The position numbers were made by a program, and so were the translations under genes. Shown piece after piece: positions 4,452 through 54,473 of a stretch of DNA of 64,000 nucleotides; within the stretch, counting starts at the first letter, position 1; each line of letters opens with the position of its first letter. The stretch is from Veillonella sp. 3310 (GTDB taxonomy: Bacteria > Bacillota > Negativicutes > Veillonellales > Veillonellaceae), in the NCBI RefSeq assembly GCF_003999875.1, contig NZ_RQVJ01000002.1, positions 62,001-126,000 on the forward strand, written 5' to 3'. The notes beneath the pieces are model-generated. The model made no database searches. It was not told the origin of the DNA and worked only from the letters and a program-made list of their open reading frames with translations.

Positions 4452-4480
4452 ATCCTATCATACCAATTTTAGAATGTCAA
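4452..4480 (-). promoter_or_regulatory. Promoter of the toxI-toxN transcript
   Basis: On the minus strand TTGACA (4480-4475, consensus -35) is followed after exactly 17 bases by TAGGAT (4457-4452), with TG one base before it (extended -10). Transcription would begin near 4446, just before the first repeat. Confidence 0.75.
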
Positions 4481-46872: not shown

Positions 46873-47331
46873 GCATAGTAGGCATATATAAGGATGTGGA
46901 TGAAAGTAATGTTGAAAGAACCCATGAAAGTAAATGTATAAATTTTTGAAGAGTTGATAGATGATACACAATAATATATGAGTTTGAAGTCGTGAGATAA
47001 GAAGTAAAAAGAGGTGAATCGTTTAAGAATACATGTATACATGATGGATATGTATTGAAAAATAGTATAATATTTGCTACTATAATATACAGTTCTATAT
47101 TCTATAGAATTAGAGCTATATTTTATGATTATTATGAAATGTAGTTACTGATTATCATAAGAGGCTAACTCTTTACAGAGTGAGCATATAGTAGGTGGAT
47201 GCTAATACAGCATCTAGCCGAACTACTATGAAGTACAGTCATTTGACATATGAATTAGAACTTTCAGTATGTGTATACCTAGTGTTAAGTACGCTAGTGT
47301 AGTGATAGAGAGCCTACAGGAGGAGAGGGTT
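46873..47331 (+). other. Long leader region of gltB without recognised gene
   Basis: AT-rich, with two TATAAT sequences at 47066 and 47081 as possible -10 sites. Closer to gltB there are two small hairpins: ACTCT/AGAGT near 47169-47182, and TAGTAG...GATGCT/AGCATC...CTACTA at about 47190-47230. These could be leader structures; I recognise no riboswitch class. Confidence 0.4.
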
Positions 47332-50300
47332 ATGATGGAAATGAGTACCATTGCAAAACAACATGAGGAGCAGCGCCATTTGGAAGCAAATGGTTTGTAT
47401 AGTTCCCAATTTGAAAAAGATGCATGCGGCATGGGATTTGTGGTGAATATTAAAGGTAAGAAATCCCACGATATCATCGATGATGGCTTGCGTATTCTTG
47501 AGCGTTTAGAGCACCGTGGTGGTGCTGGCGCTGATAAGGATACGGGCGATGGAGCAGGTATCTTGGTGCAAATTCCACATGACTTTTTCCGTCGTGAGTG
47601 CGAAGTGTTGGGTATCCATTTACCGCCGGCAGGCGACTACGGTGTGGGCATGGTCTTTGCTCACAAGTACGAAACATTGCGAAATGAGCAAAAGCGTATC
47701 CTAGAAGAGGTTGTTCGTGAAGAAGGGCAAATCGTACTGGGTTGGCGTGAAGTGCCGGTAGATTCTACAGCTGTTGGACATGAGGCTGCTTTGATTCGCC
47801 CTTGGATGATCCAAATCCTCATCGGTAAAGGTCCAGATGTGACAAACCAAGCGGAGTTTGAACGTAAATTATATATGATTCGTAAAATTGCGGAAAAACG
47901 CATCGTTCCATTGAGCAAAGAAATGAGTAGCGATTTCTACATTGCATCCTTGTCGTCTAAAACGATCGTTTATAAAGGCATGTTGACACCAGTACAATTA
48001 CGTAACTTTTATCTTGACTTGAACGATTTAGATTTCACCTCTGCTTTAGCGATGGTCCACTCTCGTTTCAGTACAAATACATTCCCAAGCTGGGCACGGG
48101 CCCATCCTAATCGTTACTTAGTACATAATGGGGAAATCAACACGATCCGTGGTAATGTAAACTGGATTAATGCTCGTGAAGGAAAAGCAGAATCTCCATT
48201 GTTCCCAGATATTAAAAAAGTATTCCCCGTGGTGGATGATACAGGATCTGACTCTGCCATGTTCGATAATACCCTTGAGTTCTTACACATGACAGGCCGT
48301 AGCTTGCCACATGCCATCATGATGATGGTTCCAGAACCATGGGAACGCAATACTTTGATGAGTCAAGAAAAACATGACTTCTACGAGTTCAATAGTTTCA
48401 TGATGGAACCATGGGATGGTCCAGCAGCTATGGGCTTTACCGATGGGACTGTTATCGGTGGTGTCTTGGACAGAAACGGCTTGCGCCCTGCACGTTATTA
48501 TGTGACTGCTGACGACCGTGTGATCATGGCATCTGAAGTAGGCGTAGTGAACGAAGCGGACGATATGATTCGCGCCAAAGGTCGCTTAGAGCCAGGTAAA
48601 ATGCTTTTAATCGACACAGAAGAAGGTCGTATCATTTCTGATGAAGAAATCAAGCAACGAGTAGCTACAGAACTTCCTTATCACGAGTGGGTAAAAGAGC
48701 ATGTGATTCATTTGTCGGAAATTCAACAAGCTACGGAAGATAGCATTCCAGAAGTGGGCGATTTGTTCATGCAACAACAAGTATTCGGCTATACCCAAGA
48801 AGATTTGGTACGTATGATTATCCCTATGGCGAAAGATGGAAAAGATCCAGTAGGTTCCATGGGTGCCGATGCACCATTGGCGATTTTGTCCGATAAACCA
48901 CAAATGTTGTACTCCTATTTCAAACAACTATTTGCGCAAGTAACCAATCCGCCAATTGACGCCATCCGCGAAGAAATGGTGACCTCTACACGAGTGATGC
49001 TTGGCAATAGCGGTAACTTGACGGACCCCAACAAAGTGGGTACCTACGCCGTATCTATGCGGACACCAATCATGACGAACCAAGAATTGGCGAGTATCAA
49101 ACAATTGGACTGTCGTCGCATGAAATCGGTGACCTTGTCCATCCTGTTTGACCCTGCCAAAGGTGCGGAAGGCATGAAAGAAGCCTTAGACCGTTTGTGC
49201 AAAGATGCAGAGGAAGCAGCTCGTACTGACCAAAATGTGTTGATTTTATCTGACCGTGGCGTAGACGAACATCATGCGCCAATCCCTGCGTTATTAGCAG
49301 TGGCTGCGGTGCACAATCACTTGATTAACACCGTATTGCGCACAGAAATGGGCTTAATCTTAGAATCTGGGGAACCTCGTGAAGTACATCATTTCTGTAC
49401 TTTATTAGGCTATGGTGTAACAGCCATCAATCCGTATGTGGCATTAGCGACAGTTCGTGAACTACAAGCAACGAATCGCTTGGGCGATCTCACACCAGAA
49501 GAGGCAGAAGCGAATTACATCAAGGCTTCTGTATCAGGCATTATGAAAGTTATGTCGAAAATGGGCATTTCCACTGTACGCAGTTACCATGGAGCGCAAA
49601 TCTTTGAGGCATTGGGCTTGAATACAAACTTTATTAGTACCTACTTCCCAAATACACCGACACGCATTGGCGGTATCGGCTTAGGTGGCGTAGCCCGTGA
49701 AACGTTGGAACGATTCCAACGAGCTTTCAGAGAAGATGTGAAAGTCCTCGAACCAGGCGGTTGGTACGGTCCAATGAAAGATGGGGAAGAGCATTTATTC
49801 AATCCAGATACGATTAAGTTATTGCAAACATCCTTGGTTGAAGGGGATTACAATACATACAAAGAATACTCTAAAATGATTCGTGAAGATTATCACGTAA
49901 CCTTGCGTAGCTTGATGGAATTAAACTTCCCTGTGGGTGGCGGTATTCCTGTAGAAGAAGTAGAATCAGTGGAAGACATTGTGAAACGCTTTAAAGCAGG
50001 TGCTATGAGTTATGGTGCCATCAGTAAAGAGGCCCATGAAACTATTGCTATCGCTATGAACCGTTTAGGATCTACATCGAACTCCGGAGAAGGCGGCGAA
50101 GATACCAGTCGTTTTGTCCTAGACGCCAATGGCGACAATCGTAATAGTGAAGTTAAACAAATTGCGTCTGGTCGTTTTGGGGTAACTACGAATTATTTAG
50201 TACATGCGAAAGAGTTGCAAATTAAATGTGCCCAAGGGGCGAAACCAGGTGAAGGTGGCCAATTGCCAGGTAAAAAGGTATATCCTGAGATCGGTAAAGC

Positions 50301-51918
50301 CCGTCACTCCACACCAGGGGTAGAACTTGTATCCCCGCCTCCACATCACGACATTTATTCTATCGAAGATTTGGCAGAGTTGATTTATGACTTGAAATGC
50401 GTGAACCCAAGTGCAGCGATCTCTGTGAAATTGACCTCCGAAGCTGGGGTTGGTACCATTGCTGCAGGGGTAGCAAAAGCGAAAGCAGATAGCATCCTTA
50501 TCTCAGGCTATGATGGTGGCACGGGTGCAGCTGGTCGGACGTCTGTGAAACATGCAGGTGTGCCATGGGAATTAGGACTTTCAGAAACACATCAAACCTT
50601 GATGTTGAACCGTTTGCGTGACCGTGTACAACTGGAAGTAGATAGTAAGCTCATGACTGGCTATGATGTGGCTATCGCAGCCTTGCTAGGGGCAGAGTTA
50701 TTCGGATTTGGTACCTTGCCATTAGTGGCAGTAGGTTGTCGCATGGCACGGGTTTGCCATATGAATACATGTCCGTACGGCGTGGCAACGCAGGATGAAA
50801 AATTGCGTGCTAAATTCACAGGCAAACCAGAATATGTAGAAAACTTGATGAAGTTCATCGCCCAAGAATTGCGTGAGATCATGGCTCGTTTAGGCATTCG
50901 TAGCGTGCGTGAGTTAGTAGGTCGTATTGATTTAGTGCGCCAATGCTCCCAAGACGATAATTTTAAATTGTCTCGTGTGGACTTGAAACGAATCTTGTTC
51001 AAACCATACACAGATGCTTCTGTGGGACATTTGCATAGCATTGATCAAGACCATGAATTGGAACGCACTTTGGATATGAAAAAATTACTTCGTATGTGCC
51101 GTCCTGCCTTGGATGATCAAAAACCTATTCGTGCGAAATTGGCTATTAGCAATGTGAATCGTGTAGTAGGTACTTTAGTCGGCGGTGAAGTGGTTCGTCG
51201 TTACGGTGAAGCGGGCTTGGCAGATAATACGATTAAATTGAATTTCGTTGGTTCTGCAGGTCAAAGTTTCGGGGCTTTCATTCCGAACGGTATGACCTTA
51301 GAACTGGAAGGGGATGCGAACGATTACCTTGGTAAAGGTTTGTCCGGCGGTACGATTATTGCATACCCTCCAAAAGCAGCTACCTATGAAGCGCATGAAA
51401 ATATCTTGATCGGCAACGTGGCATTCTATGGGGCTACTTCTGGTACTGCCTATATCAATGGTGTCGCTGGGGAACGGTTCTGCGTTCGTAACAGTGGTAT
51501 TACTGCTGTCGTAGAAGGTGTGGGTGACCACGGTTGCGAATACATGACAGGCGGCGAGGTCCTTGTCCTTGGACGTGTGGGCCGTAACTTTGGCGCCGGC
51601 ATGTCCGGTGGCTATGCGTACGTGCTTGACCTAGATGGACGTTACTGCAATACAGGACTTGTGGAACTTCGTAAGCCTAGTGAAAGTGACCTAACACGGA
51701 TTCATGAGTTAGTGCAACAACATGTATTGCATACGAACTCTAAACAAGGTCGCCATATGCTAGAGAACTGGGTATTGTACAAAGATCGCTTTACCAAAAT
51801 TGTGCCAACCGCTTATGAAGAAATGCAACAAAGCATTGCTCACTTCCAAGGGGAAGGTATGTCATTAGAAGAAGCGCAATTAGCAGCATTTAAAGCAAAA
51901 TATATGAGTGGAAAATAG
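47332..51918 (+). CDS. gltB: Glutamate synthase large subunit
   Basis: Makes two glutamate from glutamine and 2-oxoglutarate. The 1528-residue protein has the full order: N-terminal glutaminase domain starting at Cys32 after a short propeptide (EKDACGMGF), central domain, FMN/2-oxoglutarate domain (GAMSYGAISKEAHETIAIAMNR, SGYDGGTGAAGRTSVKHAG), [3Fe-4S] cysteines in GCRMARVCHMNTCPYG, and the C-terminal GXGXG beta-helix. ATG 47332 follows AGGAGGAGAGGG; the frame is open back to 47269. No gltD follows: the next gene is on the other strand. The electron donor partner must be elsewhere or be ferredoxin. Confidence 0.95.
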   Translation: MMEMSTIAKQHEEQRHLEANGLYSSQFEKDACGMGFVVNIKGKKSHDIIDDGLRILERLEHRGGAGADKDTGDGAGILVQIPHDFFRRECEVLGIHLPPAGDYGVGMVFAHKYETLRNEQKRILEEVVREEGQIVLGWREVPVDSTAVGHEAALIRPWMIQILIGKGPDVTNQAEFERKLYMIRKIAEKRIVPLSKEMSSDFYIASLSSKTIVYKGMLTPVQLRNFYLDLNDLDFTSALAMVHSRFSTNTFPSWARAHPNRYLVHNGEINTIRGNVNWINAREGKAESPLFPDIKKVFPVVDDTGSDSAMFDNTLEFLHMTGRSLPHAIMMMVPEPWERNTLMSQEKHDFYEFNSFMMEPWDGPAAMGFTDGTVIGGVLDRNGLRPARYYVTADDRVIMASEVGVVNEADDMIRAKGRLEPGKMLLIDTEEGRIISDEEIKQRVATELPYHEWVKEHVIHLSEIQQATEDSIPEVGDLFMQQQVFGYTQEDLVRMIIPMAKDGKDPVGSMGADAPLAILSDKPQMLYSYFKQLFAQVTNPPIDAIREEMVTSTRVMLGNSGNLTDPNKVGTYAVSMRTPIMTNQELASIKQLDCRRMKSVTLSILFDPAKGAEGMKEALDRLCKDAEEAARTDQNVLILSDRGVDEHHAPIPALLAVAAVHNHLINTVLRTEMGLILESGEPREVHHFCTLLGYGVTAINPYVALATVRELQATNRLGDLTPEEAEANYIKASVSGIMKVMSKMGISTVRSYHGAQIFEALGLNTNFISTYFPNTPTRIGGIGLGGVARETLERFQRAFREDVKVLEPGGWYGPMKDGEEHLFNPDTIKLLQTSLVEGDYNTYKEYSKMIREDYHVTLRSLMELNFPVGGGIPVEEVESVEDIVKRFKAGAMSYGAISKEAHETIAIAMNRLGSTSNSGEGGEDTSRFVLDANGDNRNSEVKQIASGRFGVTTNYLVHAKELQIKCAQGAKPGEGGQLPGKKVYPEIGKARHSTPGVELVSPPPHHDIYSIEDLAELIYDLKCVNPSAAISVKLTSEAGVGTIAAGVAKAKADSILISGYDGGTGAAGRTSVKHAGVPWELGLSETHQTLMLNRLRDRVQLEVDSKLMTGYDVAIAALLGAELFGFGTLPLVAVGCRMARVCHMNTCPYGVATQDEKLRAKFTGKPEYVENLMKFIAQELREIMARLGIRSVRELVGRIDLVRQCSQDDNFKLSRVDLKRILFKPYTDASVGHLHSIDQDHELERTLDMKKLLRMCRPALDDQKPIRAKLAISNVNRVVGTLVGGEVVRRYGEAGLADNTIKLNFVGSAGQSFGAFIPNGMTLELEGDANDYLGKGLSGGTIIAYPPKAATYEAHENILIGNVAFYGATSGTAYINGVAGERFCVRNSGITAVVEGVGDHGCEYMTGGEVLVLGRVGRNFGAGMSGGYAYVLDLDGRYCNTGLVELRKPSESDLTRIHELVQQHVLHTNSKQGRHMLENWVLYKDRFTKIVPTAYEEMQQSIAHFQGEGMSLEEAQLAAFKAKYMSGK

Positions 51919-53730: not shown

Positions 53731-53865
53731 AAGATTGTCACCTCAGTGAAGTCATCAAAATGTTTGCATGTACTTTTTATTATATCATAATTAGCTTAAG
53801 AAGTGACGATTCTCTGAAAGTATGGTATTCTATTGTGTAGCGGCAAGTGGAAAGGAAGTGATTGT

Positions 53866-54363
53866 ATGACTGATGAAGAGTATATGCGTGAAGCCTTGGT
53901 AGAGGCACGTAAGGCCTATGATATGGGTGAGATTCCTATTGGTGCTGTATTAGTGCATGAAGGCCAAATTATTAGTCGTCATCACAACCGTCGTGAGATT
54001 GACCATGATGCGACGGCCCATGCAGAGGTCCTTGTCATCCGTGAGGCGAATGCTATGCTTGAAAGGTGGCGGTTGACCGGTTGTACGCTTTATGTTACCA
54101 TAGAGCCGTGCCCTATGTGTGCTGGTGCTATTATTAACAGTCGCATTGATCGTGTTGTCTATGGTAGTAGCGACTATAAGGGCGGTGCGGTAGAATCTTT
54201 GTTTAATGTACTTTCACATCCGAATTTAAACCATGAACCACAGGTGTTGGCGGGTGTATTGCAAGAAGAATGCAGTCAAATTATGAAAGATTTTTTCAAA
54301 GAACGCCGTCGTATACGGAGAGGTACTCAAGTGGCTGAAGAGTCCGCACTCGAAATGCGGTAG
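53866..54363 (+). CDS. tadA: tRNA-specific adenosine deaminase; 3' end overlaps tRNA-Ser
   Basis: Converts A34 to inosine in tRNA-Arg(ACG). The 165-residue zinc deaminase has HAEVLVIREA (His52, Glu54) and PCPMCAGAII (Cys82, Cys85), and the RIDRVVYGSSDYKGGAVESLFN segment. GAAAGGAAG sets the ATG at 53866. The last 15 codons (from residue 151, GTQVAEESALEMR) lie inside the tRNA-Ser gene at 54317-54407, and the TAG stop falls in the tRNA variable arm. The conserved enzyme part ends at KDFFKERRR, so the tail is probably just read through the tRNA gene. Confidence 0.93.
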   Translation: MTDEEYMREALVEARKAYDMGEIPIGAVLVHEGQIISRHHNRREIDHDATAHAEVLVIREANAMLERWRLTGCTLYVTIEPCPMCAGAIINSRIDRVVYGSSDYKGGAVESLFNVLSHPNLNHEPQVLAGVLQEECSQIMKDFFKERRRIRRGTQVAEESALEMR

Positions 54364-54407
54364 GTCAGGAAACTGGCGCGGGGGTTCAAATCCCCCTCTC
54401 TCCGCCA
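54317..54407 (+). tRNA. tRNA-Ser (anticodon CGA)
   Basis: Acceptor stem GGAGAGG (54317-54323) pairs with TCTCTCC (54397-54403) with a G-U at the last position, then G and an encoded CCA. The anticodon arm CCGCA-CTCGAAA-TGCGG gives anticodon CGA. There is a long variable arm of the class II type, and the T arm is GGGGG-TTCAAAT-CCCCC. The tRNA starts inside the tadA coding frame on the same strand; a terminator follows it. Confidence 0.94.
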
Positions 54408-54411
54408 AAGT

Positions 54412-54444
54412 AAGGGCTGTGTCAGTAGATGCAGCCCTTTTTTA
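54412..54444 (+). terminator. Terminator after tRNA-Ser
   Basis: AAGGGCTG pairs with CAGCCCTT around a 12-base loop, followed by TTTT. Confidence 0.85.
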
Positions 54445-54473
54445 CAAAATGACGTAGTTATAGGAGGTATGAT

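Follow-up and report, generated by a model that had tools for sequence, protein, structure and literature searches.

A putative promoter in synonymous codons of tadA may supply the overlapping tRNA-Ser(CGA) gene of Veillonella

In Veillonella sp. 3310, the gene for the tRNA-modifying enzyme TadA ends within a tRNA gene. The last 15 codons of tadA, stop included, lie inside tRNA-Ser(CGA) on the same strand, and the TAG stop coincides with tRNA nucleotides 45-47, the first bases of the variable region. Why does an enzyme gene run into a tRNA gene, and how is the tRNA made? The initial annotation of the window (the whole 64,000-nucleotide stretch of DNA that was analysed) suggested that the arrangement could be a built-in feedback: excision of the tRNA by RNase P would remove the stop codon of the tadA message, so that tRNA maturation and TadA synthesis compete. 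The analysis presented here points to another answer. Patterns of sequence conservation suggest that tRNA-Ser(CGA) is probably transcribed mainly from a sigma-70/sigma-A extended -10 promoter embedded in tadA and that the overlap is tolerated.

The coordinates of both genes and their 47-base same-strand overlap, as given in the initial annotation, were confirmed by open reading frame analysis and ARAGORN (Table 1). TadA passes the NCBIfam model NF008113 (191.6 bits; cut-off 150) and shares 98% identity with TadA of Veillonella sp. VA142. Its start codon is the ATG at 53866, upstream of which the mechanical open reading frame begins at a TTG (53833). The tRNA has a cloverleaf, a CGA anticodon and a long variable arm, and passes the Rfam model RF00005 with 52.1 bits (cut-off 29). 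Could the long tadA frame be an artifact? A sequencing error is ruled out by the same frame in 24 of the 28 genomes of the family, and a spurious long open reading frame by the TadA core, which extends to FFKERR, a few codons before the tRNA, with no earlier stop. Three of the 40 tRNA genes of this genome contain the stop of a same-strand open reading frame of at least 50 codons. Among these frames tadA is the only recognized protein gene; the other two span several neighboring tRNAs and look spurious.

Table 1. Features of the tadA/tRNA-Ser(CGA) locus, in window coordinates
Feature	Positions	Strand	Basis
Candidate tadA promoter, GTGACG-17-TATTCT with TG	53803..53831	+	Weaker match, predicted
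tadA, tRNA adenosine(34) deaminase, 165 aa	53866..54363	+	NF008113, Pfam deaminase models, PDB TadA chains
Putative -35 element, TTGACC, codons Leu70-Thr71	54073..54078	+	Promoter scan, codon conservation, pattern search
Putative extended -10 element, TG at 54093-54094 and hexamer TACCAT at 54096-54101, codons 76-79	54093..54101	+	Promoter scan, codon conservation, pattern search
Predicted 5' leader of short tRNA precursor, 215 bases	54102..54316	+	Distance; transcript predicted
tRNA-Ser(CGA), 91 nt, CCA encoded	54317..54407	+	ARAGORN, RF00005
tadA/tRNA-Ser(CGA) overlap, 47 bases	54317..54363	+	Open reading frame and tRNA coordinates, tRNA alignment
Terminator-like hairpin, 12 pairs, 4-base loop, U run	54412..54443	+	Folding of 54408-54450: -19.2 kcal/mol, z -5.4

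How did the overlap arise? The family set (f1) comprised 28 genomes of what we take, from the named near relatives and general taxonomy, to be the Veillonellaceae in the class Negativicutes. Whether relatives keep the overlap was a check proposed in the initial annotation, and they do: the 47-base form is present in 24 of the 28 genomes, while three have a 22-base overlap in another frame, with a TadA tail ending in KEKYPRG, and one (L115) has none, its tRNA beginning 32 bases past the tadA stop. On the TadA tree, L115 lies beside the other 27 family genomes, on a branch without strong support, and the overlap states need two changes; the simplest history is therefore a single origin with a later single frame change. 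The linkage between tadA and tRNA-Ser(CGA) is older than the overlap. Family f2, which belongs to the same order, has the tRNA 1-39 bases past the tadA stop in nine of ten loci; the tenth (L145) shows an independent overlap of 24 bases. None overlaps among 60 further loci from Negativicutes genomes outside the order, which are spread over genera and were drawn from the better-matching genomes among the matches listed. The tRNA begins 1-13 bases past the tadA stop in 22 of 48 non-overlapping Negativicutes loci, and outside the class it lies within 300 bases behind tadA in 7 of 73 loci.

The wider neighborhood of tadA also contains other tRNA genes. In two loci outside the Negativicutes (L063 and L013), tadA sits among clustered tRNA genes for Ser and Arg, with its own substrate, tRNA-Arg(ACG), encoded upstream and tRNA-Ser(CGA) and tRNA-Ser(GGA) downstream. 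Of the 73 loci L008-L080, 19 have a tRNA-Arg(CCT) gene that precedes tadA in the same orientation, mostly 470-690 bases before the tadA stop.

Is the overlap itself under selection? The first stop triplets offered by the tRNA in the three frames are none/22/47 in 25 of the 28 family tRNAs and none/22/none in the other three, and the observed overlaps of 22 and 47 bases end at exactly the first stop triplet that the tRNA provides in each frame. The overlap-free L115 carries the same stop triplets in its tRNA, and the unused TAG has turned into CAG in the three species with the 22-base overlap. In the tRNA alignment (10 distinct sequences among 28), 8 of 25 pairs have changed on both sides and 99.6% of cells are paired. 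Among the changes in the TadA tail that can be read off the alignments for the 47-base part are G-to-S, V-to-E and E-to-G substitutions; most changes are tied to those in tRNA stems, for example E to G together with its D-stem partner. The shared bases track tRNA pairing, not codon constraints. Selection for the tail peptide was rejected, as tail substitutions mostly accompany tRNA stem changes. Selection for retention of the overlap was rejected by simulating neutral evolution along a tree scaled by fourfold sites, each of which undergoes 10.5 changes. The probability that all 27 species stay free of a stop in the two-codon spacer preceding the tRNA was 0.09-0.44, depending on the starting spacer, and retention does not exceed this neutral expectation. 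Because the tRNA drives the tail changes and the simulation retains the overlap under neutrality, neither the tail peptide nor the overlap needs selection, and the overlap is probably a tolerated, harmless by-product.

From where might the tRNA be transcribed? A candidate promoter, TTGACC-17-TACCAT with a TG, occupies 54073-54101 within tadA and ends 215 bases upstream of tRNA-Ser(CGA); a blind promoter scan had listed it beforehand. Its -35 hexamer matches TTGACA at five of six positions and its -10 hexamer matches TATAAT at four of six, giving 9 of 12 letters at a spacing of 17, and transcription would start near 54107-54109. Silent variation drops at tadA codons 65-80 in three genera separately. 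The consensus of the 28 family genomes over this stretch, TTG ACY GGN TGY NNN CTN TAT GTT ACN ATA, corresponds to TTGACY-17-TACNAT with TG. Four codons, TTG for Leu70, TAT for Tyr76, GTT for Val77 and ATA for Ile79, are invariant in all 28 genomes, and the spacer codons 72-75 vary within the family. The 28 tadA genes offer 110 degenerate sites at which the amino acid is conserved. Only five of these are codon-invariant, and four of the five are promoter letters; the chance that four of five invariant sites would fall within codons 70-79 is 1.7e-4. Elsewhere in tadA, none of 40 fourfold columns is invariant in the 28 family genomes. When 72 sites are ordered from least to most silent variation, these four take places 1, 2, 4 and 6 in 36 other Negativicutes loci that possess the tRNA (families f4 and f5 excluded). 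In the 41 loci that do not have it within 300 bases, all four fall outside the lowest 14 of 72. These comparisons suggest that the letters of the hexamers are under selection and those of the spacer are not.

The sequence around the candidate has further features. Codon 69, just outside the hexamers, is CGG in 26 of the 28 family genomes. In this genome, CGG TTG ACC GG (54070-54080) forms a small inverted repeat (CGGT-TG-ACCG) around the -35 element. The extended -10 pattern has two more matches in the window, at 4452-4480 on the minus strand and at 50431-50459 on the plus strand, making three found against 0.14 expected; the match at 50431 lies inside a 1549-aa open reading frame (47269-51918).

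Does the embedded site accompany the tRNA? Among 117 Negativicutes loci, the strict site is present in 56 of 76 with tRNA-Ser(CGA) within 300 bases downstream and in none of 41 without it, or in 28 of 48 against none of 41 when the family of the window is set aside. These counts are not independent by descent: adjacency changes only three times on the TadA tree and leaves no more than 1-3 independent pairs, too small a number for testing the association. Excluded from this set were L001-L007, named Veillonella loci that nearly duplicate members of the family set; L099-L103, which repeat L081-L085; and L218, whose contig ends 47 bases past tadA. L133 and L141 were kept, although their contigs end about 0.7 kb and 1.5 kb past tadA, respectively. 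The 41 loci counted as lacking the tRNA include L225, in which it lies 473 bases downstream, and L230 and L232, in which it lies roughly 0.6-0.7 kb downstream. The strict site is absent from all seven loci outside the Negativicutes with the tRNA behind tadA. An exact 35-base pattern of the site was found in 71 of 252 genomes of the class, once in each, and its reversed control in none of the 252. By family, the pattern occurs in 28/28 genomes of f1, 9/10 of f2, and 34/53 of f6-f20 and f22-f30, and is absent from f3 (0/11), f4 (0/4), f5 (0/39), and f21 (0/107). In families f3, f13, f14 and f21, a tRNA-Ser(CGA) pattern was matched in 40 of the 41 genomes searched; there the tRNA has another location rather than having been lost.

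What of the 20 tRNA-bearing loci, out of 76, that lack the strict site? A promoter-like match with a score of at least 9 lies within 80 bases of the tRNA in 13 of these 20, compared with 3 of the 56 loci that possess the site, and the scores of the tRNA-proximal matches differ with P 3e-5. The remaining seven of the 20 also lack a strong match near the tRNA. Loci such as L188, L219 and L238 have neither the strict site nor a clear promoter near the tRNA, and three of the seven (L211, L212, and L216) retain a variant of the embedded site. Upstream sequences can differ sharply within one genus: compared with L081, the DNA of L083 and L084 more than about 60 bases upstream of tadA is wholly different; the promoter-like stretch nearest the gene is much alike, as are tadA itself and the tRNA.

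How might the locus be expressed? Near the junction a single terminator-like hairpin was found, and it stands directly after the tRNA; therefore a tadA mRNA that keeps its stop must include the tRNA sequence. A pattern-based terminator scan reported neither a terminator between tadA and the tRNA nor the hairpin at 54412. Upstream of tadA, the TATTCT of the candidate tadA promoter is present in all six loci of the genus. We infer promoter activity, two transcripts and processing by RNase P as follows. The embedded promoter would give rise to a short untranslated precursor, consisting of a leader of about 210 nt and the tRNA and reaching to the hairpin, from which RNase P would release the tRNA. 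The tadA promoter would yield a longer transcript that serves as the enzyme message and also crosses the tRNA; such read-through from tadA into the tRNA is likely. Cleavage of this long transcript by RNase P between 54316 and 54317, with loss of the stop codon, is possible; it would strip the tadA message of its stop, with tmRNA on hand. A tmRNA gene scores over the cut-off in all 28 family genomes, tmRNA being generic in bacteria. As for the origin of the arrangement, the old tadA stop beside an abutting tRNA would have been lost in the common ancestor of all but one of the 28 sampled Veillonellaceae. Translation would since then have run on to a triplet that belongs to the tRNA in any case, and the overlap would be tolerated since the tRNA is supplied independently.

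The junction itself shows one regularity. Base -1 of the tRNA (54316) is C in all 24 loci with the 47-base overlap, where a CGG codon spans the RNase P site, but in only 14 of 48 non-overlapping loci, in which T is commonest. This invariance could reflect either a constraint on the junction or shared descent, and C-1 could pair with G73 of the tRNA. One may also imagine the tadA frame as enzyme, embedded promoter, tRNA leader and tRNA 5' half in one, in which the promoter secures the tRNA, excision strips the stop and keeps TadA low, and C-1 tunes RNase P; we regard this composite arrangement as quite improbable.

Is the overlap nevertheless a regulatory device? A selected competition between tRNA maturation and TadA synthesis would fit a stop codon inside the tRNA in 27 of the 28 family genomes and in two frames, the tmRNA gene in all 28, the position of the sole terminator-like hairpin near the junction, and an overlap that arose once and was then kept, with two changes in the family. 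The embedded promoter, however, would make tRNA supply independent of the tadA mRNA. Moreover, the overlap lengths of 22 and 47 bases are set by stop triplets present in L115 as well, and retention of the overlap under neutrality is not unlikely. The substrate of TadA is tRNA-Arg(ACG), which is encoded in this genome, and not tRNA-Ser(CGA), so a direct loop from product to enzyme is unlikely; we know of no regulatory link from tRNA-Ser(CGA) to TadA. With a candidate promoter, a tail driven by the tRNA, neutral retention and a different substrate all speaking against it, the built-in feedback is not supported and appears distinctly improbable. The initial annotation had itself named an independent tRNA promoter, with no read-through from tadA, as evidence against its model, and at the level of sequence a candidate for an independent promoter lies inside tadA.

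Two further explanations concern the embedded site itself. The invariant codons at 54070-54102 might answer to another constraint, such as RNA structure, a regulator site or codon choice near the active site, since the stretch precedes the zinc-site motif PCPMC, in a region of highly conserved amino acids, and codon 69 is nearly invariant despite lying outside the hexamers. Yet the conserved letters amount to two hexamers and a TG at a spacing of 17 with free codons between them, different codons encode the same amino acids where the tRNA is not behind tadA, and where the site is missing, a promoter-like match is often present at another place ahead of the tRNA; we consider such a constraint rather unlikely. 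It is highly improbable that the tRNA is made solely from the tadA transcript and that the promoter-like site is a relic or inactive, as four synonymous codons would not stay fixed in a relic while neutral sites each underwent 10.5 changes. The absence of a reported terminator between tadA and the tRNA would suit a single transcript, as would the close spacing in 22 of the 48 non-overlapping loci, which resembles that of a processed operon. Transcription of tRNA-Ser(CGA) mainly from the promoter embedded in tadA thus remains the reading that we favor.

What does this locus teach? What looked like a regulatory curiosity becomes a testable case, a putative promoter spelled by silent codons within an enzyme gene and retained in many Negativicutes families. 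This suggests that silent codons of tadA in the Negativicutes should not be counted as neutral and that gene finders that trim proteins at tRNAs would mis-end TadA in most sampled Veillonellaceae. Loci in which the tRNA is adjacent and loci from which it has moved away provide a natural contrast for studying the survival of a hidden promoter after its target leaves. A literature search, with most subscription journals outside its scope, found no report of a tadA/tRNA-Ser overlap or an embedded tadA promoter and no map of Veillonella transcription start sites.

Three kinds of known system bear comparison with this locus. Internal promoters in coding sequences that drive a downstream gene are a known general kind in bacteria, and the candidate in tadA is like them in being a sigma-70-type promoter in an upstream coding sequence aimed at the next gene. 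It differs in that synonymous codons preserve it throughout much of a class and in that it occurs, among the loci fetched, only where tRNA-Ser(CGA) follows. The locus also resembles mRNA-tRNA operons split by RNase P, with tadA and the tRNA on the same strand, no terminator found between them and a hairpin after the tRNA. Unlike in those operons, the stop codon lies inside the tRNA, so that a cleaved message would be stop-less, and a second promoter seems to serve the tRNA alone. Finally, the locus is like same-strand overlapping genes in that some bases serve two functional sequences read in one direction, but here a structured RNA is one of the two, and the bases in common obey RNA pairing.
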